This document shows, piece by piece, positions 18,952 through 30,439 of a DNA stretch of 33,067 nucleotides. Within the stretch, counting starts at the first letter, position 1. Each line of letters opens with the position of its first letter. The DNA is taken from assembly GCA_030680995.1 (NCBI GenBank), contig JAUXUM010000240.1:1-33067 (forward strand), given 5' to 3'. The translations under genes were made by a program, and so were the position numbers. The stretch comes from Devosia sp. (GTDB lineage Bacteria > Pseudomonadota > Alphaproteobacteria > Rhizobiales > Devosiaceae). The notes beneath the pieces are model-generated. The model searched no databases and had not been told where the DNA came from. It worked only from the letters and a program-made list of their open reading frames with translations.

Positions 18952-21468
18952 CTAGAATTCTGCCCACTCCTCCTCGACCGCGGCATTGCCACGGCTGAGA
19001 TAGGATTTGGCGGCGGTCGTGATCCTGTCCTTGAGGCCGCCGATGCCGCGAGGCGGCGGTACCGCGACGGCCCTGGGCTTGTCCTCGATGGTGAAGATGT
19101 CGACGATGCGGTCGAGTTCGACCGCCTGCGCCTCGGTCTGCTCGATGGCGGCATTGGTTTCTTCCACCAAGGCGGCATTGTGCTGGGTCATCTCGTCCAT
19201 CTGCCGGACCGCTGCATTGACCTCTTCGATCGCCGCCGCCTGTTCCTGGCTGTCCTTGGCGATACCCTCCATCAGCTCGTTGCTGGAGCGGGCCGCGGCG
19301 AGCATCCCGGCGAGCTTTTCCGCCGCTTCGGCGACGAGCCTGGACCCGCCTTTGACTTCCCCGGCGCTTTGTTCGATCAACACCTTGACCTCCGACGACG
19401 CCTCGGCCGCCGACTGCGCCAGCCGGCGCACTTCCACCGCCACCACCGCGAAGCCCTTGCCGGCCTCTCCCGCCCGCGCCGCTTCCACCGAGGCATTGAG
19501 CGCCAGCAGGTTGGTCTGGAAGGCGATGTCGTCGATCAGCCCGATGATGTTGGAGATCTTGCCCGACGAGGTGGTGATCCGCTCCATCGCCTCGGTCGCC
19601 TGATGCATCACTGCGCCGCTCTCCTCGGCGGTCCTGGTAACCGTTCCGGCGACCCCGCTCGCGTCCTTGGCGCGCTGGGCATTCTGCAGCACCGTTGTCG
19701 CCAGCTGTTCCATCGTCGCCGAAGTCTCTTCGATGGTGGCGGCCTGCTTGGTGGTGCGTTCGCTCAGATCGTTGGCGCCCGAAAGGATTTCTCCGGTCGC
19801 CATCTTGAGCGCGCGGGACGTTTCCTTGAGCTGCCCGACGATCTCGCCGAGCTTCTCGGCCACCGCGTTGGTATCCATTTTCAGCCGCTTGAACGCGCCT
19901 TCGTACTGGCCCCGCACCCGCTGCGTGAGATCGGTCTCCGCCAGTGCCGCCAGCACCGAGCCGGTTTCGCTGATGCCGCGATCCACCGTCTCGACGAGAT
20001 TATTGACGCTGCCGGCGAGGGCATTGAGTTCCTTGTCGGGAAACTCCGCCTCGACGCGCCTGGAAAAGTCGCCGTTGATCGCCGCATCCACCACTTCGCC
20101 GAAAGCCTGTTGCAACTGCTGCATCATGGCCGCGCGATCGAGACGCCGCTGTTCGGACGCCGCACGCTCCCCTTCGGTCAATTCCGTGACCTTGAGCGCG
20201 TTTTCCTTGAACACCTGCACGGCCTGGGCCATCTGGCCGACCTCATCGGACCGCTCGGCGCCCTGCACCTCGACGGCGAGGTTGCCCTGTGCCAGCGCAT
20301 CCATTTTTTGGGTAAGGCGTGTGATGGGCTTGGTGATCGCGCGCGAGAACAGCAGGCCGGCGCCCGCCGCAATCGCGAGCAGCACGCCTCCGATACCGAG
20401 CATCATGTCGCGCATGCTGTTGATCGGAGCATAGGCCTCGTCCTGGCCGATGGTGGTGATCACCGCCCAGTTGACGCCGTTGAACTCGAGCGGCATGGCC
20501 GTTGCCAGCATGGTCATGCCGCGATAGTCGGTGGTCATGCCGCTGGCGGGCTGCCCGGCAAGCGCCGCCTCGACGACGGAATTGGAATAGGCAGTCAGCA
20601 AGGTGTCATCCACACCCGAAAACACCGAGTCGGTGCGCAGAAGGTGGTCGGTGCCCACGAAGAAGGATTCGCCGGTCGCACCGAGATTGGCATTATGCTG
20701 CATCATGGCGTTGACCGTGCCGATCGGCATCTGGATCGCCATGACGCCGATCAGCTTGCCGCGCGCGTCGAAAACCGGCGTCGCCATGAAGCTCGCCGGC
20801 ATGCCCCCGCTTGCCGCGTAGACCGAGAGATCCTCGAAGGCGACCTGGCCTGTCTCGGTCAGGGTCATCGCCTTGCGGTAGGCGCGGCCAAGCCCGCTAT
20901 CCGCGTAGGGTCCGCCGCCTTCGCTGAAGTTGGTGGCGAAATCGGATTCCTTGAGCACCGAGTAGACGAGGTTCCCCGCCGTGTCGAACAGGAACATGTC
21001 CTGGTAGCCGCGCGCTTCCAGCTGGCGGCGGAAATTCGGGTGCACCTTGGAATGGGTGAAGTCATAATTGGAGCGCGTCTTGGCGGTGGAGACGTCGAGC
21101 AGCTGGCGCTGGCCGTCGGGATTGGGATTGTTGGTGACATAGGCGTCGGTCAGCGACTGCACCGGATCGGCCGCCGGCTTGAGCGTCGAGAACTGGCCCC
21201 AGTTGATGGTAAAGTCGCGCATGGTGGTGAGCAGCGACTCGGTGGTTGCGCTGTTCACCAGATCGATCTGGATGCCGTCGAGATAGCTCTTGAACTGCTC
21301 GGCGCGCTGCGAGGCCACCGTCTGCATCAGCCGCTGCGACATCTGATCGACCGTGGCCGATCCGATCAGGTAGCTCGCGATACCGACACCCGCGCTCACC
21401 AGCAAGGCGGACCCCACCATGGCGAGCGGCAGCTTCTGCGCGATCTTGAGGCTGGGGAACAATCCCAT
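18952..21468 (-). CDS. Methyl-accepting chemotaxis protein, double Cache sensor, WAEF tail
   Basis: Transmembrane chemoreceptor, 838 residues. Helix 1 at about 14-36, a large periplasmic double-Cache domain (40-355; [60 protein letters not shown]), helix 2 at about 362-385, HAMP ([20 protein letters not shown]), a second HAMP-like block, and the signalling domain with tip at about 643-663. The extreme C-terminus, [16 protein letters not shown], matches the aromatic-x-x-aromatic pattern of receptor tethers that dock CheR/CheB. The start is ATG 21466-21468 with GGAG eight bases before it; a GTG three codons earlier overlaps that site. Double-Cache receptors often sense amino acids; ligand unproven. 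Confidence 0.94.
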
Positions 21469-21553
21469 AGTCGACACTCCATCGGTAGGTCGCGGCGTGC
21501 GGGGAAGATACCGATGAATCGCGGCTGTCCGCCACAGACGCTGCCCGTGACAG

Positions 21554-21788: not shown

Positions 21789-22178
21789 CTAGGAGAGCGC
21801 CCCGATCACCGCCTCGATGCGCTTCTTCATCGTCGACGCATCGAATGGCTTGATGATGTAGTTGTTGACGCCGCAGGAGATGGCTTCCTTGACCTGCTCC
21901 TTGTCGGACCGGCCGGTCGCCATGATGAACGGCATGGACTGCGTCTTGGGGTGCTTGCGGATCACCCGCAGCAGCGTCAGCCCGTCGATATCTTCCATGT
22001 TCCAGTCGGAAATGATCAGATCGACATTGGACTTTTCGAGCTTGCCCAACGCATCGCGGCCGCTCTTGGCCTCGATGATATTGGTGAATCCGAGTTGGGT
22101 GAGAATGTACTTGCAGATGCCCCGCATCGACTGCTGGTCATCCACGATCAGGACACTGATGGCACTTGCCTTCGGCAT
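21789..22178 (-). CDS. cheY: Chemotaxis response regulator CheY
   Basis: Single receiver-domain protein, 129 residues, that carries the phosphoryl signal from CheA to the flagellar motor or acts as a phosphate sink. Conserved residues: acidic pair Asp13-Asp14, phospho-acceptor Asp58 in ISDWNMEDIDGL, Thr88 in MATGRSDKE, Lys110 in YIIKPF. The DWNM context is that of flagellar CheY proteins. The ATG at 22176-22178 gives the canonical N-terminus; the frame is open to 22241. It lies 95 bp after cheB. With a single CheY in the window, the sink/motor division known from rhizobia cannot be judged. Confidence 0.95.
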   Translation of the reverse strand: MPKASAISVLIVDDQQSMRGICKYILTQLGFTNIIEAKSGRDALGKLEKSNVDLIISDWNMEDIDGLTLLRVIRKHPKTQSMPFIMATGRSDKEQVKEAISCGVNNYIIKPFDASTMKKRIEAVIGALS

Positions 22179-22273: not shown

Positions 22274-23320
22274 TTATGCCGCCGACTTTAGCCGTGTCAG
22301 CGCTGCCGCCAGCCGCGCCGCAATCACCTCCACCGGCGCCTGTTCGACCACCGCACCCTCCTCGAAAGCGACCCGCGGCATACCGTAGACGAGCGCCGAT
22401 GACTGGCTTTGGCCCACCGTGAACGCCCCGGCCTCGCGCATCAATTTGAGGCCGCGCGCGCCGTCGCGCCCCATCCCGGTGAGGATGGCCCCGACCGCCA
22501 TCGGCCCGACCGTTTTGGCAACCGATTCGAACAGCACATCGACGCTGGGCCGGTGGCCCGACGCCGGTTCGTCCTGCGTCAGCCGGCACTTGAGCTGCCC
22601 CGACGAACGCTCGACCCGCAAATGGTGATCGCCCCTCGCCACATAGGCGTGACCAACTTCCAGCGGCATGCGATCGGCTGCCTCGAACACGGCGAGGTCG
22701 GTTACCTCGTTCAGCCGCGCCGCGAAGCGCGAGGTGAAACCTGGCGGCATGTGCTGCGCGATGACGATCGGCGGGCAATCGCTCGGCATGTCCGAGAGCA
22801 CGACCCGGACGGCTTCGACCCCGCCGGTCGAGGCGCCGATCGCGATCAGCGCGCCTGCCGGCGCCGCTGCGGTGCGCACGGGCACGCGCGCAGACGCAAC
22901 CCGCATTGCCCGCGATTGCACATCGCTGTGCGACGCCGCGCGCACTTTCTGCCGCAGGTTCTCGCCGAAAGCTTCCAGGCCGCCCGCAAGATCGGCATTG
23001 GGCTTGGCGACGAAATCGACTGCCCCCAGTTCGAGTGCCAGCAGGGTCTCGCTGGCACCCTTTGTGGTCAGGGTGGAGACCATGACCACCGGCAGCGGAT
23101 GCAGCCGCATCAGCTTGTCGAGGAACTGCAGCCCGTTCATGTTGGGCATCTCGATGTCGAGCGTCACCACGTCCGGGTTGAGCGCCTTGATCTTCTCGCG
23201 CGCCTCGATCGGGTCTTCAGCCGCGCCGACGACGACGATGTCGCCATCATGGCCCAGCGTGCGGGTCAGTACTTCGCGGATAAGGGCGGAATCATCGACG
23301 ACAAGAACCTTGATGCTCAT
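22274..23320 (-). CDS. cheB: Chemoreceptor methylesterase/glutamine deamidase CheB
   Basis: Cytosolic adaptation enzyme, 348 residues, removing methyl groups from receptor glutamates. N-terminal receiver domain with phospho-acceptor Asp55 in VVTLDIEMPNMNG; linker at about 125-155; C-terminal esterase with catalytic Ser164 (IGASTGG), His190 (IAQHMPPGF) and Asp286 (TGMGRDG), the same residue numbers as in E. coli CheB. The ATG at 23318-23320 overlaps the cheR stop as ATGA, so CheR and CheB are translationally coupled. The long frame to 24001 is read-through into cheR. Confidence 0.97.
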   Translation of the reverse strand: MSIKVLVVDDSALIREVLTRTLGHDGDIVVVGAAEDPIEAREKIKALNPDVVTLDIEMPNMNGLQFLDKLMRLHPLPVVMVSTLTTKGASETLLALELGAVDFVAKPNADLAGGLEAFGENLRQKVRAASHSDVQSRAMRVASARVPVRTAAAPAGALIAIGASTGGVEAVRVVLSDMPSDCPPIVIAQHMPPGFTSRFAARLNEVTDLAVFEAADRMPLEVGHAYVARGDHHLRVERSSGQLKCRLTQDEPASGHRPSVDVLFESVAKTVGPMAVGAILTGMGRDGARGLKLMREAGAFTVGQSQSSALVYGMPRVAFEEGAVVEQAPVEVIAARLAAALTRLKSAA

Positions 23321-24171
23321 GCTGCATCCCTCGTCTTCTGCATTGGCCTGGATTGATAGATGGTCTTGCCGACGAGCTTGAAGCTCTCGCCGCCGGAGCC
23401 GAGATTCTCGGAGTGGCCGATATAGAGAAAGCCCTCCGGCGCGAGGATTTTGCCAAGCCGCCCGAAAACTTCCCCCTGCGTCTTCTTGTCGAAGTAGATG
23501 GCGACGTTGCGGCAGAAGATCGCATCGAACGGCCCCTTCATCGGCCAGGCTGCCATCAGGTTGAGCGGCTTGAACGAGACCAGCGCCCGTGCGGCCATCG
23601 GGACGCGGATGGTGCCGTCCCCGGGCCGCTCGAACAGTCGCGCGCGCACCGGAGAGAGCCCGTTGAGCTCGGACTCCGGATAGATTCCGAGCGAAGCCTT
23701 GGCGATGACGTTGGTGTCGATGTCGGTCGCCAGGATCTTGAAGTCCCAGCGCCTGAGTTCGGGCCGTGCCGCAAGCAGGCAAAGCGCGATGGTATAGGGC
23801 TCCTGCCCGGTCGAGCAGCCCGCGGACCAGATGCGCAGCCTCGGCTTGCCATCTCTCGCTCGCGTCTGCTCCACCAGACGTCCGACATAGCCCGCCAAAT
23901 GCTCGAAATGGTGGTCTTCGCGAAAGAAGCGGGTCAGATTGGTGGTCAGCGCGTTGATGAAATTCTGGGCGTCGCGCTCGGATTTGGTGCGTTCGAGACA
24001 ATCGAGATAGGCATCGATCGACGGCAGGTCGAGGGCCCGCACGATCTTTGACAGCCGCGACACCACCAGCGTGCGCTTGGCGTCGGAAAGCGAGATTCCG
24101 GCTTCGGCATAGACACGCGCCTTGACGCGACCGAACTCCCGGTCGCTGAGGGCAATTTCACCCTGATCCAT
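23317..24171 (-). CDS. cheR: Chemoreceptor methyltransferase CheR
   Basis: Cytosolic SAM-dependent methyltransferase, 284 residues, methylating receptor glutamates for adaptation. A helical N-terminal domain, then TNLTRFFRE (77-85), SAM-binding motif IWSAGCSTGQEPYTIAL (114-130), DFKILATDID, and FDAIFCRNVAIYFD. It begins at the ATG 24169-24171, 36 bp after the upstream receptor gene, and overlaps cheB by 4 bp. Whether it binds the WAEF tail of the third receptor cannot be told by eye. Confidence 0.96.
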   Translation of the reverse strand: MDQGEIALSDREFGRVKARVYAEAGISLSDAKRTLVVSRLSKIVRALDLPSIDAYLDCLERTKSERDAQNFINALTTNLTRFFREDHHFEHLAGYVGRLVEQTRARDGKPRLRIWSAGCSTGQEPYTIALCLLAARPELRRWDFKILATDIDTNVIAKASLGIYPESELNGLSPVRARLFERPGDGTIRVPMAARALVSFKPLNLMAAWPMKGPFDAIFCRNVAIYFDKKTQGEVFGRLGKILAPEGFLYIGHSENLGSGGESFKLVGKTIYQSRPMQKTRDAA

Positions 24172-24207: not shown

Positions 24208-25725
24208 TCAGGCGGTTCTTCTGCGCGGTAGCAGCAGGGCCCGGGCCGCTTCGTCACCGACGGCGCCGACATGGCCGTCGAGACGGGCAATGGCACCGCT
24301 GCTTTCGTCCAGCGCACCGGCGATCATGTCGGTCTCATTGCTTAGATTCTCTAAATGCGCGCCAAGACCGGACAGGATATTTCTGAGCCTGTCCGCTTCG
24401 GTCATGCCGGCGCCGGCCTGGTTGCGGCTGTCGCCGACCAAGGCGCGGATCTCCTTGGCGGTCTTCTGGGTCGATTGCGCCAGCATGCGCACCTCGTCGG
24501 CGACGACGGCGAACCCGGCCCCTTTCTCTCCGGCACGCGCCGCCTCAACGGCGGCATTGAGCGCCAACAGGTTGGTGCGAAAGCTGACATCCTCGATGGC
24601 GGCGACCATCCTGTCGATCTCCACGGTGGTGGTGTCGACACCCTCGGCCGCTGTTTGCGTGCGCTGCGCGGCGAGCGCCGCGTCGGCGGCAAGGGTGATG
24701 GCCTCGCGTTCGAGGACCCTGACGCTCCTGATCTTGTCGCGCCCCCTCTGCACCGCCGCGCCGGCAACGATGAGGCCGGCACGGCTCTGATCCGCAAATT
24801 CGGCCATGGTCGCGACGGTGGCGCGGTATTTGTCGATGGCATCGAGCACGGCCTGCATCTTGCGCTCCAGGAGATCGCGGGCTTCGGCCTCCTCGTCGCG
24901 CTCCCCGGCCAGTGCCTTCATGGCATCGTTCAACTGGCGCATCTGCGGCGCGAGGCCCGAATTGGACTGCAACAACCCCGGCTCCAGCTCCTCGCCCGCC
25001 AGCAGCCGGGAGAACGCCTGGGCGCCGGCATCGAAGCCTTCCATCCCTTCCTGCAGTGCGCGCAGGGCCGCTGAGTTCTCCAGCACTTCAGCCTCGAAGC
25101 GGAAACTGGTCTGCCCGCCCGCCAGCGCGCCGGCAAAGGCATCGAGATCGTCGTCGGCGATGAAATGCCCGGCGGGGGCGAGCTCGAGCACGATCCGGCC
25201 GCCGCCCGCGTCCCGCCGCCTGGCTTGGAAACGCCGGCGCCCCGCCGTGACCAGTCCCTCCTCGGCCACGCCGCCGCCCGCCCGCAGAAAGCCCTCGCCG
25301 AACAGCATGTCGACGGTCTGGCCTTCCTCGGCCCGCGGTTCGATGGCGCGGAGTCCGTGACTGGCGCCCAGGATCTCGCCGTCGGGGGAGAGCAGCAGTG
25401 CCGGCTGCTTCAACCCGACGAAAGCGGATTTAAACTGGTTGGCGCGTTCGAGGCGGCGGCACAGATTGGCGATAATCGCCTCGACGCTCATCCGCTCGTC
25501 TGAGCCGGCGCCGACGGCCTTTCCCAGCACCCCGAGCTTCTCCTCGAACCGGGTGTCGGCCCGGTGTCCGAGGTAGAGACTGCAGGTGAAACCCGCCGCC
25601 GCGAGGAGTGCGCCGATCCCATAGCCGAGCGGCCCCGGTCCGAAAGTGGAGACGCCCGCCCACGCGGCCGCGAAGGCAAAAAGCCAGCACAGATTGGCAA
25701 GCAGCGCTACGCGCGTGCGGCGCAT
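24208..25725 (-). CDS. Unusual membrane chemoreceptor within the che operon
   Basis: Methyl-accepting-type protein, 505 residues, between cheD and cheR. Two close helices at about 6-26 and 33-52 leave almost no periplasmic part, so it probably senses inside the cell. No HAMP seen; instead a PAS-like segment (about 95-195; [22 protein letters not shown]) and a helical region. The signalling tip at about 375-410 reads [20 protein letters not shown], with VSFR where most receptors have IAFQ, and the signalling domain is short. The C-terminus is basic (LLLPRRRTA), without WAEF. Its place in the operon recalls the internal receptor heading rhizobial che operons, though that one is soluble. The ATG at 25723-25725 has a weak ribosome site. 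Confidence 0.88.
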
Positions 25726-25853: not shown

Positions 25854-26438
25854 CTAGAACAATTCGATGTCGTCCGCCGGCGGCTTCACCGCACGCGCTG
25901 CGACCGCGATCTCCTCCCGGACAATCGTGGCGCCAACCGCGTTGTCGAGCCGCTTGACAAAGGCACGCCCGGAATGCGGCTTGAACATCACGCGCCGTAC
26001 ATAGGTGCCGCCCAAATCCTCCTTGACCAACTCGTAGCCTTCATTGGCGAGGAATTCTCGGACGAACTCGATGTTCTTGGCGCCGACATCGCTCAGCGCG
26101 GCATTGATCAACCCTCCCCCGAACACCTTGATCTCGAGGTTCGACTTGCGGCCGCTGCCGCGGCTCAAGACCTTGTTGATCAATTGTTCCATGGCGAAAG
26201 CGCCGTAGCGGGCCGACGCGCCGTAGCGGTCGCGCGACGCCCCGGAAGGTTCGGCGAGAAGGAAATGGTTCATCCCTCCGATCTTGGCGGCGATGTCCCG
26301 CACACACGCCGAAATGCACGAGCCGAGCACGGTCGAGAACGTCAGATTGGCCTCCCCGGAAACCAGACAATCGCCTTGATGCACTGTCGTTACGACCCCG
26401 CGGTCGAATTCGGGAGGCAGGGATGATGGCGAAGCCAT
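25854..26438 (-). CDS. cheD: Chemoreceptor glutamine deamidase CheD
   Basis: Cytosolic deamidase, 194 residues, converting receptor glutamines to glutamates and, in some bacteria, binding the CheY phosphatase CheC. Catalytic Cys41 in STVLGSCISACVRD and His58 in GGMNHFLL have the 17-residue spacing of the Thermotoga CheD pair (Cys27, His44). GRKSNLEIKVFGGGLI and LGGTYVRRVMFKPHSGRAFVK are also typical. The ATG at 26436-26438 is chosen; a TTG 11 codons earlier (26471) is possible. First gene of the minus-strand che run cheD-MCP-cheR-cheB-cheY, divergent from the DxxxQ gene. Confidence 0.95.
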   Translation of the reverse strand: MASPSSLPPEFDRGVVTTVHQGDCLVSGEANLTFSTVLGSCISACVRDIAAKIGGMNHFLLAEPSGASRDRYGASARYGAFAMEQLINKVLSRGSGRKSNLEIKVFGGGLINAALSDVGAKNIEFVREFLANEGYELVKEDLGGTYVRRVMFKPHSGRAFVKRLDNAVGATIVREEIAVAARAVKPPADDIELF

Positions 26439-26488
26439 AGGCTGGTTGGACCTTCGTACTTTCTGCCCCAATCCTTACGATCCATTCC

Positions 26489-26504
26489 TTAGTGAAGCGC
26501 TAAC
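26489..26504. promoter_or_regulatory. CtrA-like box in the divergent cheD promoter region
   Basis: TTAG, seven bases, CTAAC (26489-26492 and 26500-26504) against TTAA-N7-TTAAC: 7 of 9 with exact spacing. It is about 50 bp upstream of the cheD start and 100 bp upstream of the divergent gene, where a shared activator would bind. Confidence 0.35.
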
Positions 26505-26601
26505 CACGACGGACAAGCGCGGCGGCATGCTCGATATTGGCAAGGAGCGATTTAGAAATCCGCTGTAGCGTCGAATGTGGATCTTGGGGGTTACCTGCTT
26601 C

Positions 26602-26985
26602 ATGTCGTTACAGAAACTAGCACGCGAGCTGGACGAGACGGCCCGCCAGTCAGCGGCCATGGTCGAAGGCGTCACCCAGGCGCTCGAGGTGCTCGCGGAC
26701 AAGAGCCGCTCCTCGGAAGACACCCGCAAGGAAGCGGTCTCGATCATCGTCTCGGCGTTGCAGTGGCAGGATCGCATCGAGCAGCGTTGCCAGAACATGG
26801 CCCTGGCGGTGCGCCAGTTTGCGCTGCTGCCGCCGACGGCGCCGGAAGCGGTTTATGATGAGATTTGGGCGAGCCTCATTCTCGATGAACTGCGGGTTCC
26901 GGCACTGTCCGGGGTCGCCGCGCACGGTGTCCATGGCGAGGCGGAGCTGTTTTGGGGCCAATCCCAACCCCCCGTCCGGTCCTGA
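26602..26985 (+). CDS. Small DxxxQ protein, candidate CheZ/CheT-like CheY-P phosphatase
   Basis: A 127-residue helical protein with no signal peptide, transcribed divergently from cheD. Residues 1-75 look like a long helix pair; inside is SALQWQDRIEQRCQNM, with Asp57 and Gln61 in the D-x-x-x-Q arrangement used by CheZ-family phosphatases to dephosphorylate CheY, preceded by the usual Gln-rich turn. The C-terminal half is less regular. Sinorhizobium meliloti CheT, a short che-cluster protein with a DxxxQ helix, is the nearest functional precedent I know. The ATG at 26602-26604 is preferred (MSLQKLARELDE); an in-frame ATG at 26575 adds nine unlikely residues. Ribosome site weak (GGGGG 11 bases upstream). 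Coding is well supported; function is inferred from motif and context. Confidence 0.72.
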   Translation: MSLQKLARELDETARQSAAMVEGVTQALEVLADKSRSSEDTRKEAVSIIVSALQWQDRIEQRCQNMALAVRQFALLPPTAPEAVYDEIWASLILDELRVPALSGVAAHGVHGEAELFWGQSQPPVRS

Positions 26986-27010: not shown

Positions 27011-27440
27011 TCAGACTGCTGGCGAACCCCGTCGATTTTCGGCGGGGTCTTGGTTTGGGCAGGCGATTTGGCCGATCGGGTTTGAGATCGCGGGGTGCAT
27101 CCTGTCCCAGGCCGCCCTTGGGGTTGGCTTTGGGTCCGGGGCCAGGGTGATTTTCCCGGTGTTCTGAGTGGCAGCCGCGATCAGGCACTGGCAAGCGACA
27201 GCGACGAGGCCCTGGAAGCGGGCGTAGCGGTGGCCGTGCGGTTGCTTGGCGTCGTAGGCGAAGGCCTTGGGATCCGTCATGACGGGCTTGGGCGGCGTCG
27301 GCCGGCGATAGCCGATGACGCCCCCTATCTCCCGATCCTCCAGCCCCTTGGCGATGCCGGCGGTCGCATAGCCCGCATCGAGCCCGACTGCCCCCCACCG
27401 CCAGGCGCATCAGCGCGACCCAGGCGGGCTGACGCGAGAA
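27011..27440 (-). pseudogene. IS1182-like transposase remnant
   Basis: The minus strand encodes, in two frames, pieces of a DDE transposase resembling the IS1182 group: VGLDAGYATAGIAKGLEDR with EIGGVIGYRRPTPPKP (about 27280-27392), running into FAYDAKQ and then YARFQGLVAVACQCLIAAATQ, the family's C-terminal block. The N-terminal two thirds are missing. The part normally lying between FAYDA and the C-terminal block is also missing, so there is an internal deletion. A frame change falls at a run of six G on the minus strand near 27391-27396. No start codon, inverted repeat or target duplication was found, so it cannot move by itself. Confidence 0.6.
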
Positions 27441-28082: not shown

Positions 28083-28439
28083 ATGGAATCACAGAATGCT
28101 ATTGAAGGCTTCTCCGCCTTGGCGCAGTTGACTCGCCTCGAGGCGTTCCGGCTGATCATCCGGCACCAGCCGGACGGGTTGCCGGCCGGCGAGGTGGCGC
28201 GGCTCCTCGATGTGCCGCAGAACACCATGTCGACGCATCTGGCCATCCTCACCCGCGCGGGGCTGATCTCGGCCGAACGGCATGGCCGCTCGATCATCTA
28301 CCGGGCCGAAATGGACAAGGTGCGCGAGATCACCGCCTTCCTGGTCAACGATTGCTGCGGCGGACGGCCGGAAATCTGCGAGCCGTTGATCGCCGAAATC
28401 ACCCCCTGTTGCGCGCCCACGGACCCGAACCATGTCTGA
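28083..28439 (+). CDS. arsR: Arsenic-responsive repressor ArsR
   Basis: Winged-helix ArsR/SmtB repressor, 118 residues, first gene of the ars operon; it should leave DNA on binding arsenite. Helix-turn-helix at about 35-62 (PAGEVARLLDVPQNTMSTHLAILTRAGL), wing at about 65-75. It lacks the ELCVC metal site of plasmid ArsR; Cys91-Cys92, Cys99 and Cys109-Cys110 near the C-terminus (CCGGRPEIC, TPCC) are the likely As(III) ligands, as in other ArsR proteins with C-terminal sites. No ribosome site precedes the ATG, and the predicted transcription start falls on it, so it may be translated leaderless. It overlaps arsC by 8 bp. Confidence 0.93.
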   Translation: MESQNAIEGFSALAQLTRLEAFRLIIRHQPDGLPAGEVARLLDVPQNTMSTHLAILTRAGLISAERHGRSIIYRAEMDKVREITAFLVNDCCGGRPEICEPLIAEITPCCAPTDPNHV

Positions 28440-28959
28440 TTGCGTCTACAACGTACTATTCCTCTGCACCGGGAACTCGGCGCGTTCGATCCTTGCCGAA
28501 GCCTATCTTAATTCGGCTGGCGCTGGCCGCTTCCGCGCCTATTCGGCCGGGAGCCACCCGAAAGGCGAGGTCAATTCGCTGGCGCTCAAGATCCTGCGGG
28601 ATTCCGGCCTGCCGCATGAGGGTTTCCGTTCCAAGAGCTGGGACGAGTTCGCCATTGCCGGCGCGCCGGAACTGGATTTCGTCTTTACCGTCTGCGACAA
28701 CGCGGCGGGCGAGGCCTGCCCGATCTGGCCCGGTCACCCAATGACCGCCCATTGGGACATGGAGGACCCGGCAGCCGTCGAGGGCAGCCCCATCGAAAAG
28801 CAAGCCGCCTTCGTCACCGCGCTACGCTATATGCGCAACCGCATCAACGCCTTCATCAACCTGCCGCTCGCCTCGATCGATCGCCTGTCGTCAAAGAGCC
28901 GCCTCAAGAGCATCGGCGACCTCGAAGGCAACACCCAGCGCCAATCCGGCGCGGCCTGA
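28432..28959 (+). CDS. arsC: Arsenate reductase, thioredoxin type (low-MW phosphatase fold)
   Basis: Cytosolic enzyme, 175 residues, reducing arsenate to arsenite for export. P-loop CTGNSARS with nucleophile Cys12 and Arg18 (Cys-x5-Arg), then Cys88 and Cys96 in VFTVCDNAAGEACPIWPG, matching the Cys10/Cys82/Cys89 relay of S. aureus ArsC. The last 30 residues (SIDRLSSKSRLKSIGDLEG) extend beyond the usual core. The ATG at 28432 overlaps arsR; its stop shares TGATG with the permease start, so the operon is translationally coupled. Confidence 0.93.
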   Translation: MSDCVYNVLFLCTGNSARSILAEAYLNSAGAGRFRAYSAGSHPKGEVNSLALKILRDSGLPHEGFRSKSWDEFAIAGAPELDFVFTVCDNAAGEACPIWPGHPMTAHWDMEDPAAVEGSPIEKQAAFVTALRYMRNRINAFINLPLASIDRLSSKSRLKSIGDLEGNTQRQSGAA

Positions 28960-30020
28960 TGTCGATCTTCGAACGCTTTCTGACCCTCTGGGTCGCGCTC
29001 TGCATCGTCGCCGGCATTGCCGCCGGACATTTCCTGCCGGGCCTGTTCCAGGCCATTGCGGCGCTGGAGATCGCCAGGGTCAACCTGCCCGTGGCGGCGC
29101 TGATCTGGCTGATGATCATCCCCATGCTCGTCCGCATCGATTTCGCGGCGTTAAGAGACGTCGGCAAGCACTGGCGCGGCATCGGGGTGACCTTGCTGGT
29201 CAACTGGGCGGTCAAGCCCTTCTCGATGGCGCTGCTGGGCTGGCTGTTCATCGGGCACCTGTTCCGTCCGTACCTGCCCACCGACCAGATCGACTCCTAC
29301 ATCGCCGGCCTCATCATCCTCGCCGCCGCCCCATGCACCGCCATGGTGTTCGTGTGGAGCAGCCTGACCAAGGGCGAGCCGCATTTCACCCTCACCCAGG
29401 TGGCGCTCAATGACGCCATCATGATTGTCGCCTTCGCGCCGCTGGTCGGGTTGCTGCTCGGCCTATCGGCGATCACGGTCCCGTGGGACACCCTCGTCAT
29501 CTCGGTCGGTCTCTACATCGTCGTGCCGGTCATCGCCGCACAGCTCATCCGCCGCGCGCTGCTCGCGAGGGGTGGCATCGACGCCGTGAATGCCCTGTTG
29601 CGGGTCCTGCAGCCGGCGTCGACCGCGGCGCTGCTCGTCACCCTCGTCATGCTGTTCGGCTTCCAGGGCGAGCAGATCATCGCCCAGCCGCTGATCATCG
29701 CGCTGCTGGCCGTGCCGATCCTGATCCAGGTCTATTTCAACTCGGGGCTGGCCTATCTGCTCAACCGCCTGTCGGGCGAGGAGCATTGCGTTGCCGGTCC
29801 ATCGGCGCTGATCGGGGCCAGCAATTTCTTCGAGCTGGCAGTGGCGGCAGCGATCAGCCTCTTCGGGTTCAATTCCGGCGCGGCGCTGGCGACCGTGGTG
29901 GGGGTGCTGGTCGAGGTGCCGGTGATGCTCTCGGTGGTCTGGATCGTCAACAGGTCCAAAGGCTGGTACGAGCGCGGCGCGACCGTTGGCAACGCCGCTT
30001 CCACGAAGGCCGCCGAATGA
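28959..30020 (+). CDS. arsB: Arsenite efflux permease, ACR3 family
   Basis: Inner-membrane exporter of As(III), 353 residues, about ten hydrophobic helices. It is ACR3 (BASS superfamily), not the classical ArsB fold, although often named arsB or acr3. Signature residues: Cys126 in LAAAPCTAMVFVWS (helix 4) and Glu292 in ASNFFELAVA (helix 9), both needed for arsenite transport in characterised ACR3 proteins. The ATG at 28959-28961 overlaps the arsC stop. It exports the arsenite made by the reductases on both sides. Confidence 0.95.
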   Translation: MSIFERFLTLWVALCIVAGIAAGHFLPGLFQAIAALEIARVNLPVAALIWLMIIPMLVRIDFAALRDVGKHWRGIGVTLLVNWAVKPFSMALLGWLFIGHLFRPYLPTDQIDSYIAGLIILAAAPCTAMVFVWSSLTKGEPHFTLTQVALNDAIMIVAFAPLVGLLLGLSAITVPWDTLVISVGLYIVVPVIAAQLIRRALLARGGIDAVNALLRVLQPASTAALLVTLVMLFGFQGEQIIAQPLIIALLAVPILIQVYFNSGLAYLLNRLSGEEHCVAGPSALIGASNFFELAVAAAISLFGFNSGAALATVVGVLVEVPVMLSVVWIVNRSKGWYERGATVGNAASTKAAE

Positions 30021-30439
30021 ACGTCACCATCTACCACAATCCCGAGTGCGCCACCTCTCGCAACACCCTGGCGCTGATCCGCAATGCCGGGATCGAGCCG
30101 GCGATCGTCGAATACCTCAAGACGCCGCCGAGCCGGACGCAACTGATCGACATCATCAATCGTGCCGGGCTGAGAGTGCGCGAGGCGGTGCGGCAAAAGG
30201 ATACGCCCTATCTCGATCTGGGTCTCGACGACCCGGACCTCAATGACGGCCAGCTGCTCGATGCCATGCTGGCCCACCCGATCCTCATCAACCGGCCATT
30301 CGTGGTGACGCCGCGTGGCGTGCGTCTCAGCCGTCCCTCCGAAGTGGTGCTCGACATCCTGCCGCTGCCGCAAAAGGGGCCTTTCGCCAAGGAGGACGGT
30401 GAGCTTGTCGTCGGCATGCACGGGCGCCGCGTGCCCTAG
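30017..30439 (+). CDS. arsC: Arsenate reductase, glutaredoxin type (ArsC/Spx fold)
   Basis: A second arsenate reductase, unrelated in fold to the first: a thioredoxin-fold ArsC of 140 residues using glutathione and glutaredoxin. Catalytic Cys11 in YHNPECATSRNTL (Cys12 in E. coli plasmid ArsC), with Arg residues in NRPFVVTPRGVRLSRP completing the oxyanion site. The ATG at 30017 overlaps the permease stop as ATGA. Last gene of the operon; it converges on phnE with a gap of only 22 bp and no terminator visible between them. Confidence 0.94.
   Translation: MNVTIYHNPECATSRNTLALIRNAGIEPAIVEYLKTPPSRTQLIDIINRAGLRVREAVRQKDTPYLDLGLDDPDLNDGQLLDAMLAHPILINRPFVVTPRGVRLSRPSEVVLDILPLPQKGPFAKEDGELVVGMHGRRVP

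Follow-up and report, generated by a model that had tools for sequence, protein, structure and literature searches.

For alphaproteobacteria without CheZ, the question of how chemotactic signals are terminated has found a partial answer in one rhizobium, through a CheY1 sink and the small protein CheT. According to the accessible excerpt of a review, CheT of S. meliloti carries a DXXXQ motif, has a CheZ-like AlphaFold model, dephosphorylates one of two CheYs and forms a complex with CheR, while the A. fabrum genes lie in the order cheB (atu0519), cheY2 (atu0520), cheD (atu0521) and cheT (atu0522) (PMC12654446). The excerpt of another article describes rhizobial CheY1 as a phosphate sink (PMC8429497), hence a missing CheZ alone is no proof of a phosphatase. 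CheZ itself carries the motif AXXFQ directly before DXXXQ, as given in the part available of PMC7750401. Among the matches listed by our literature search, whose scope was mostly papers outside subscription, neither a DxxxQ protein in Devosia nor a DxxxQ module fused to a receptor is described.

Here we report on a gene at 26602-26985 (+) of a Devosia sp. contig, where positions refer to the whole stretch of 33,067 nucleotides that was analysed (the window). As read in the window its product has 127 aa, with a QxxDxxxQ core of Q54, D57 and Q61 (26761-26784, +) as the candidate catalytic Asp/Gln pair. A previous sequence-only reading had seen in it a CheZ/CheT-like CheY-P phosphatase with Asp57 and Gln61 inside the segment ALQWQDRIEQ, and translation of the plus strand agrees with both the length and the position of the pair. 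Scans with Pfam and NCBIfam gave no family above cut-off (the best Pfam match was ParB, E 0.013), and a PDB sequence search returned sub-threshold matches only. On the grounds of conservation, synteny, profile links and the failure to find CheZ or CheC in the genome, we propose for this protein, with a probability of about three in four, the role of a small auxiliary CheY-P phosphatase, which would make it the counterpart of CheT in Devosiaceae.

When taken alone the DxxxQ pair is weak evidence, for among 1110 unrelated reading-frame segments of 110-140 aa it is present in 208 (and the longer QxxDxxxQ in 11), therefore its conservation had to be tested. Q54, D57 and Q61 turned out to be invariant in all 70 full-length Devosiaceae orthologues, so that the conservation of the pair on which the sequence-only reading had made its case depend is borne out, and this invariance lifts the motif above chance. 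Among the 20 positions counted in these 70 sequences, no change was seen at Q54, D57, R58, I59, Q61, R62, W89, L94, E96, L97 and F117. The window copy is part of the set, which possibly holds one species twice through two collections and leaves out L003 and L007, whose genomes are present as L088 and L087. Residue 55 is G in 65 of the 70, which makes W55 of the window atypical. Most nucleotide changes that separate the gene from those of four relatives are at the third position of a codon (66/99, 61/93, 66/96 and 60/93), and dN/dS against seven relatives lies at 0.07-0.16, values that are rough given a dS of 0.95-2.4; the gene is under purifying selection.

Orthologues were found at 65 loci in a scan of named genome contigs, 55 of them titled Devosia and the other ten Pelagibacterium, Maritalea, Hyphomicrobiales or alphaproteobacteria, and in one case a metagenome-assembled genome titled Thermomicrobiaceae. 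The contig of the latter (L026) carries a Devosia-type gene pair, 76% identical, and is probably misbinned. In 199 sampled genomes of the order eight gave a match, seven of which belong to the family of the window, the window genome included. The eighth (L008), from another family, is DnaK as judged by eye and not an orthologue.

The AlphaFold2 model of the protein predicts a helical hairpin (mean pLDDT 75.9, pTM 0.60), the second helix of which bears the invariant Q54-x-x-D57-x-x-x-Q61. Beyond the hairpin come a short helix, where a segment LtLDELR is conserved, and a disordered tail, which in relatives closes with a [DE]x[DE]LF-type motif. The long helix that had been anticipated around D57 and Q61 is recovered in the model, where residues 38-74 are almost continuously helical (38-53 and 55-74). 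Fold searches by Foldseek (best E 0.53) and VIA-align (best Z 8.4) returned generic, unrelated helical hairpins, with no CheZ among the best 50 matches of each; the CheA dimerisation domain is among the matches (Z 7.0, rmsd 2.5, 77 aligned residues), which may reflect only a common arrangement.

Gene neighbourhood provides the first link to CheT. The divergent neighbour of the gene is cheD (25854-26471, -; PF03975, E 1.9e-25), with its likely start at the ATG ending at 26438, and the head-to-head placement noticed earlier proved to be general, with cheD adjacent and divergent at 65 of 65 loci. CheD occurs in 27 of the 199 order genomes. All seven CheD genomes in the family of the window have the DxxxQ gene beside cheD, and among the other 20 there are 12 with a small QxxDxxxQ protein of about 119-141 aa in this place (the open frames of L082 and L091 are longer at the N-terminus), divergent in L096 as in the window and otherwise downstream of cheD. 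For seven more of the 20 no QxxDxxxQ neighbour was recognised within 1.5 kb, and the contig of the last is incomplete. The order cheB-cheY-cheD-X is found in L097 and L099 and continues with fliF in L079, matching cheB-cheY2-cheD-cheT as excerpted for A. fabrum.

The second link comes from profiles. We aligned 11 of these 12 CheT-type proteins, leaving out L091 as a near copy of L094, and found Q, D and Q to be the only invariant columns; when 22 Devosiaceae and CheT-type rows are aligned together, at identities down to 14%, only M1, Q54, D57 and Q61 are invariant. Compared by hhalign, the Devosiaceae and CheT-type profiles score 38.9 with a probability of 88.3 (94.8 with the intermediate L096), above shuffled (at most 20.1), reversed (at most 15.5) and natural-family controls (at most 22.7), the last being 23 other families from the loci with MCPs and CheD among them. 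The sequence-only reading had called for a profile comparison with CheT, and this one gives a positive answer for the syntenic proteins, which make up the comparison set; CheT of S. meliloti and A. fabrum is known here from the excerpted review, and plasmid searches for the named CheT relatives found none. Taken with the invariant pair and with the genome in which no CheZ or CheC was found, the similarity to proteins in the CheT position supports the CheT-like half of that reading.

A third link leads to chemoreceptors. In a combined profile run over 385 genomes of the class, 23 genomes gave a match, and among 24 other class loci (L138-L161) 12 proteins carry Q[FY]QDRxxQ after the receptor tip (L143-L146, L148-L151, L154, L159-L161). 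PF00015 was confirmed in all nine receptor-fused proteins scanned, and these soluble chemoreceptors of other alphaproteobacteria are, judging from sequence, candidate receptor-phosphatase fusions. Proteins of other architectures (L142, L155, L157) and small CheT-like proteins (L138-L141) were left out of the profiles, and five chance-like matches (L147, L152, L153, L156, L158) were dropped. The Devosiaceae profile scores 54.4 against the receptor-fused module (probability 95.9; shuffles and reversals at most 16.7, natural families at most 22.7), a score partly biased because the twelve modules were picked by their similarity to the profile. The CheT-type profile reaches 35.4 with the same module (shuffles at most 21.1, natural families at most 28.0).

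The window copy of the gene departs from its relatives at its 3' end. At all 65 named-collection loci the protein has 116-118 aa and ends in [LF]F, with the stop codon being TAG in 37, TGA in 20 and TAA in eight, whereas the window has TGG at 26953-26955. The ancestral end is thus codon 117 (26952), and because TGG stands at the stop position the window protein runs ten residues further through WGQSQPPVRS to a stop (26953-26985, +), burying its tail EAELF (26938-26952, +) in an internal position. Either the stop was lost in the window allele or the assembly is wrong there; with the stop lost and the unusual W55, the allele could be impaired. Beside the gene, the frame 27011-27280 (-) weakly resembles a transposase (DDE_Tnp_1_6, E 0.066, below cut-off) and may be what is left of an insertion sequence. 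Arsenic-resistance-like frames (ArsR-like, arsenate-reductase-like and Acr3-like) were recognised by eye at 28083-30439 (+).

CheD of the window ends in the same kind of tail, DIELF (25857-25871, -). At the 65 Devosiaceae loci the pattern [DENG]x[DE][LFM]F closes 129 of 4169 ORF segments with a length of 100 aa or more, namely 65 cheD and 64 DxxxQ proteins and no others, and in loci L075-L161, against a background of 1496 stop-ended segments of at least 80 aa, the 46 tail-bearing ORFs are 19 cheD (two of which repeat the window's own) and 27 with QxxDxxxQ. All 12 receptor-fused modules end in [IV][ED][LM]F, ten of them in the stricter form, and since the matched stretches stop at or before profile position 91 of 120, the module tail is independent of how the modules were selected. 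Over the whole window genome the DNA pattern of the tail matches three times, in cheD, in the DxxxQ gene (with TGG) and in one other place (with TGG), with a real stop in cheD alone. A pattern that likewise allows TGG and matches regardless of open frame gave 71 matches in 12 other genomes versus 77 for its backward form; stop-ended matches are confined to cheD and the DxxxQ gene in G127, G090 and G129 and to cheD in G186 and G152, and occur beyond these two genes in G036, G005, G154, G056, G172, G187 and, once, G124. Seven of the 12 CheT-type proteins end exactly at [LF]F and the rest have one to eight further residues or a variant, while five of the six CheD ends seen in genomes without a DxxxQ neighbour read LFD, so the tie between tail and phosphatase is not a strict one. 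The CheDs seen outside the family of the window mostly end in a similar tail. In the AlphaFold models both tails have pLDDT below 50, the CheD model being poor overall (mean 62.8).

We tentatively suggest, while considering it a doubtful proposal, that alphaproteobacterial chemotaxis uses the [DE]x[DE]LF-type tail as a docking motif which has gone unrecognised, and that this motif places the deamidase CheD, free-standing DxxxQ phosphatases and receptor-fused modules on one surface, for which CheR (23317-24171, -; match to Salmonella CheR 1bc5/1af7, E 3e-61) and CheY-P are the candidates. If this were true, CheD and the phosphatase would compete or cooperate there, so that the end of the signal would be coupled directly to receptor adaptation, in place of the CheC-CheD feedback that Bacillus uses, and the receptor-fused modules would be chemoreceptors that carry their own CheY phosphatase. 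A three-residue beta-loop insertion is a mark of pentapeptide-dependent CheR, and the window CheR is without this insertion of Salmonella CheR. The pentapeptide that binds CheR/CheB is, according to the excerpt of PMC7390727, mostly acidic apart from W at position 2 and F at position 5, and the tail is alike but for the W, in whose place there is mostly A, V or I. One chemoreceptor of the window (18952-21477, -) ends in EWAEF, a pentapeptide of the CheR/CheB type, and the other window MCPs looked at do not.

The tail also bears on an alternative in which the protein is a non-catalytic adaptor, its hairpin binding CheR and/or CheD (or the receptor array) by the tail, with QxxDxxxQ serving in dimerisation or partner binding. 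The reported binding of CheT to CheR (PMC12654446, excerpt), the tail common to CheD and receptor-fused modules and its resemblance, apart from W, to the pentapeptide (PMC7390727, excerpt) would all fit such a role; we nevertheless regard it as unlikely, since Q, D and Q are invariant while almost all else in the hairpin varies, as is the case for catalytic residues, the same D-Q spacing is catalytic in CheZ, and the loop insertion that goes with pentapeptide dependence is missing from the window CheR.

Returning to the CheT-type reading, its presumed substrate is the CheY of the cluster (21789-22178, -; PF00072, E 6e-30), with Asp58 in SDWNM as counted by eye. The chemotaxis genes follow each other on the minus strand in the order cheD, MCP, cheR, cheB, cheY and further MCPs, where the MCP gene (24208-25725, -; PF00015, E 1.3e-27) lies between cheR and cheD, a place that it does not occupy in some of the relatives, and cheB (22274-23317, -, approximate start) was placed by orthologues adjoining cheR in tblastn. 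One CheA was found in the window genome. A phosphatase for another receiver, such as CheB-P or another CheY paralogue, finds a parallel in S. meliloti CheT, which acts on only one of two CheYs (PMC12654446, excerpt), and is still in our opinion quite improbable: cheD adjoins the gene at every one of the 65 loci, cheR was found at 63 (the remaining two being short contigs), and most clusters covered by contigs have a well conserved CheY, 83-96% identical by tblastn where present beside cheB in relatives.

The genes cheD and DxxxQ are separated by a palindromic element, TTAGNNAANNGCTAACC (26489-26505), a candidate shared operator. Of 65 homologous intergenic regions 47 hold an exact copy, and there is none elsewhere in 947 kb of loci; the looser TTAG-N7-CTAA lies within 200 bp upstream at 55 of 65 loci and turns up twice more, once at a distance of 240 bp upstream in L072. 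Co-control with the adaptation genes had been suggested from the placement of the gene, and with divergence at all 65 loci and a conserved palindrome the part concerning cheD gains support; we infer joint regulation of the two genes through this element. As a site of a genome-wide regulon the palindrome was rejected, with the window copy being the sole exact match in the genome and matches with one mismatch numbering three, as do those of the backward control.

With regard to CheZ, PF04344 gave no match for the DxxxQ protein at E<=1 and none was found in the genome, and CheC (PF04509) had no match there either, absences that are not absolute because the genome is 96% complete in 257 contigs. 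The statement that Alphaproteobacteria mostly lack recognisable CheZ is partly right, as 109 of 289 sampled genomes of the class have CheZ. In hhalign the Devosiaceae profile scores 16.7 against CheZ (reversed controls 17.1 and 17.2) and 18.9 against full-length CheZ, whose reversed control is higher at 33.5 and calls for caution with mid-range scores of helical profiles; the CheT-type profile gives nothing against CheZ (10.8). Direct homology to CheZ, tried with both full-length and core CheZ alignments, is therefore unproven at control-level scores. Of the three profiles compared, only that of the receptor-fused module links to CheZ, with a score of 36.4 and a probability of 78, DxxxQ being in register; shuffles and reversals stay at or below 16.1 and natural families at or below 28.1 for the module and 23.4 for CheZ, although 36.4 is only narrowly above the worst control seen anywhere (33.5). 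The CheZ half of the sequence-only reading is accordingly left with this indirect link, the direct comparison with alphaproteobacterial CheZ not exceeding its controls. The AXXFQ form of CheZ is replaced by AxxWQ in the window and AxxGQ in most relatives.

That the protein is a genuine CheZ which has diverged strongly and become shorter by losing the N-terminal helix is hardly to be expected, for although AxxxQDxxxQR resembles the AXXFQ-DXXXQ block as excerpted in PMC7750401 and the receptor-fused module provides an indirect connection, the direct profile link does not rise above controls, 65 of 70 orthologues have G instead of the F of AXXFQ, and the tail differs from the DIDALL/F-like end of many alphaproteobacterial CheZ.

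If the protein is indeed a CheT-type phosphatase, two hairpins would pair into a four-helix bundle and insert Asp57 and Gln61 into the active site of phosphorylated CheY (at Asp58), where Gln61 would orient the attacking water as in CheZ. Dephosphorylation of CheY-P would then end signalling in a genome whose search yielded neither CheZ nor CheC, the tail might dock the enzyme on a partner surface that CheD also uses, and the palindrome would coordinate the expression of cheD and the DxxxQ gene. Such an assignment would add Devosiaceae, whose protein is not named by any family model, to the groups with a protein of the CheT kind. The receptor-fused modules also provide a sequence bridge between CheT-type proteins and CheZ. 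In the loci examined the tail is carried only by CheD and QxxDxxxQ proteins, and this common tail offers a testable prediction of how adaptation and signal termination are wired together.

Compared with the known systems, the Devosiaceae protein resembles CheZ (PF04344) in its DxxxQ pair on a long helix, the Q directly before D, the helical hairpin and a flexible end with a conserved C-terminal motif, whereas it has no match to the CheZ model, is about half as long, replaces the F of AXXFQ, ends in a different motif and shows no direct profile link. With CheT, as described in the review excerpt, it has in common that it is a small, predicted helical DxxxQ protein beside cheD in a genome where no CheZ was found, and that its profile resembles that of proteins occupying the same place among the genes; unlike the cheT gene, which lies downstream of cheD, its gene is divergent. 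It is also shorter than the CheT-type proteins aligned, its relatives have a stricter [DE]x[DE]LF-type end, and by score its profile is closer to the receptor-fused module. The module is fused to an MCP signalling domain whereas the Devosiaceae protein is free-standing, and the two share Q[FY]QDRxxQ, the IELF-type tail, in most modules an LtLxEmR-like segment, and the strongest profile match of all (54.4).
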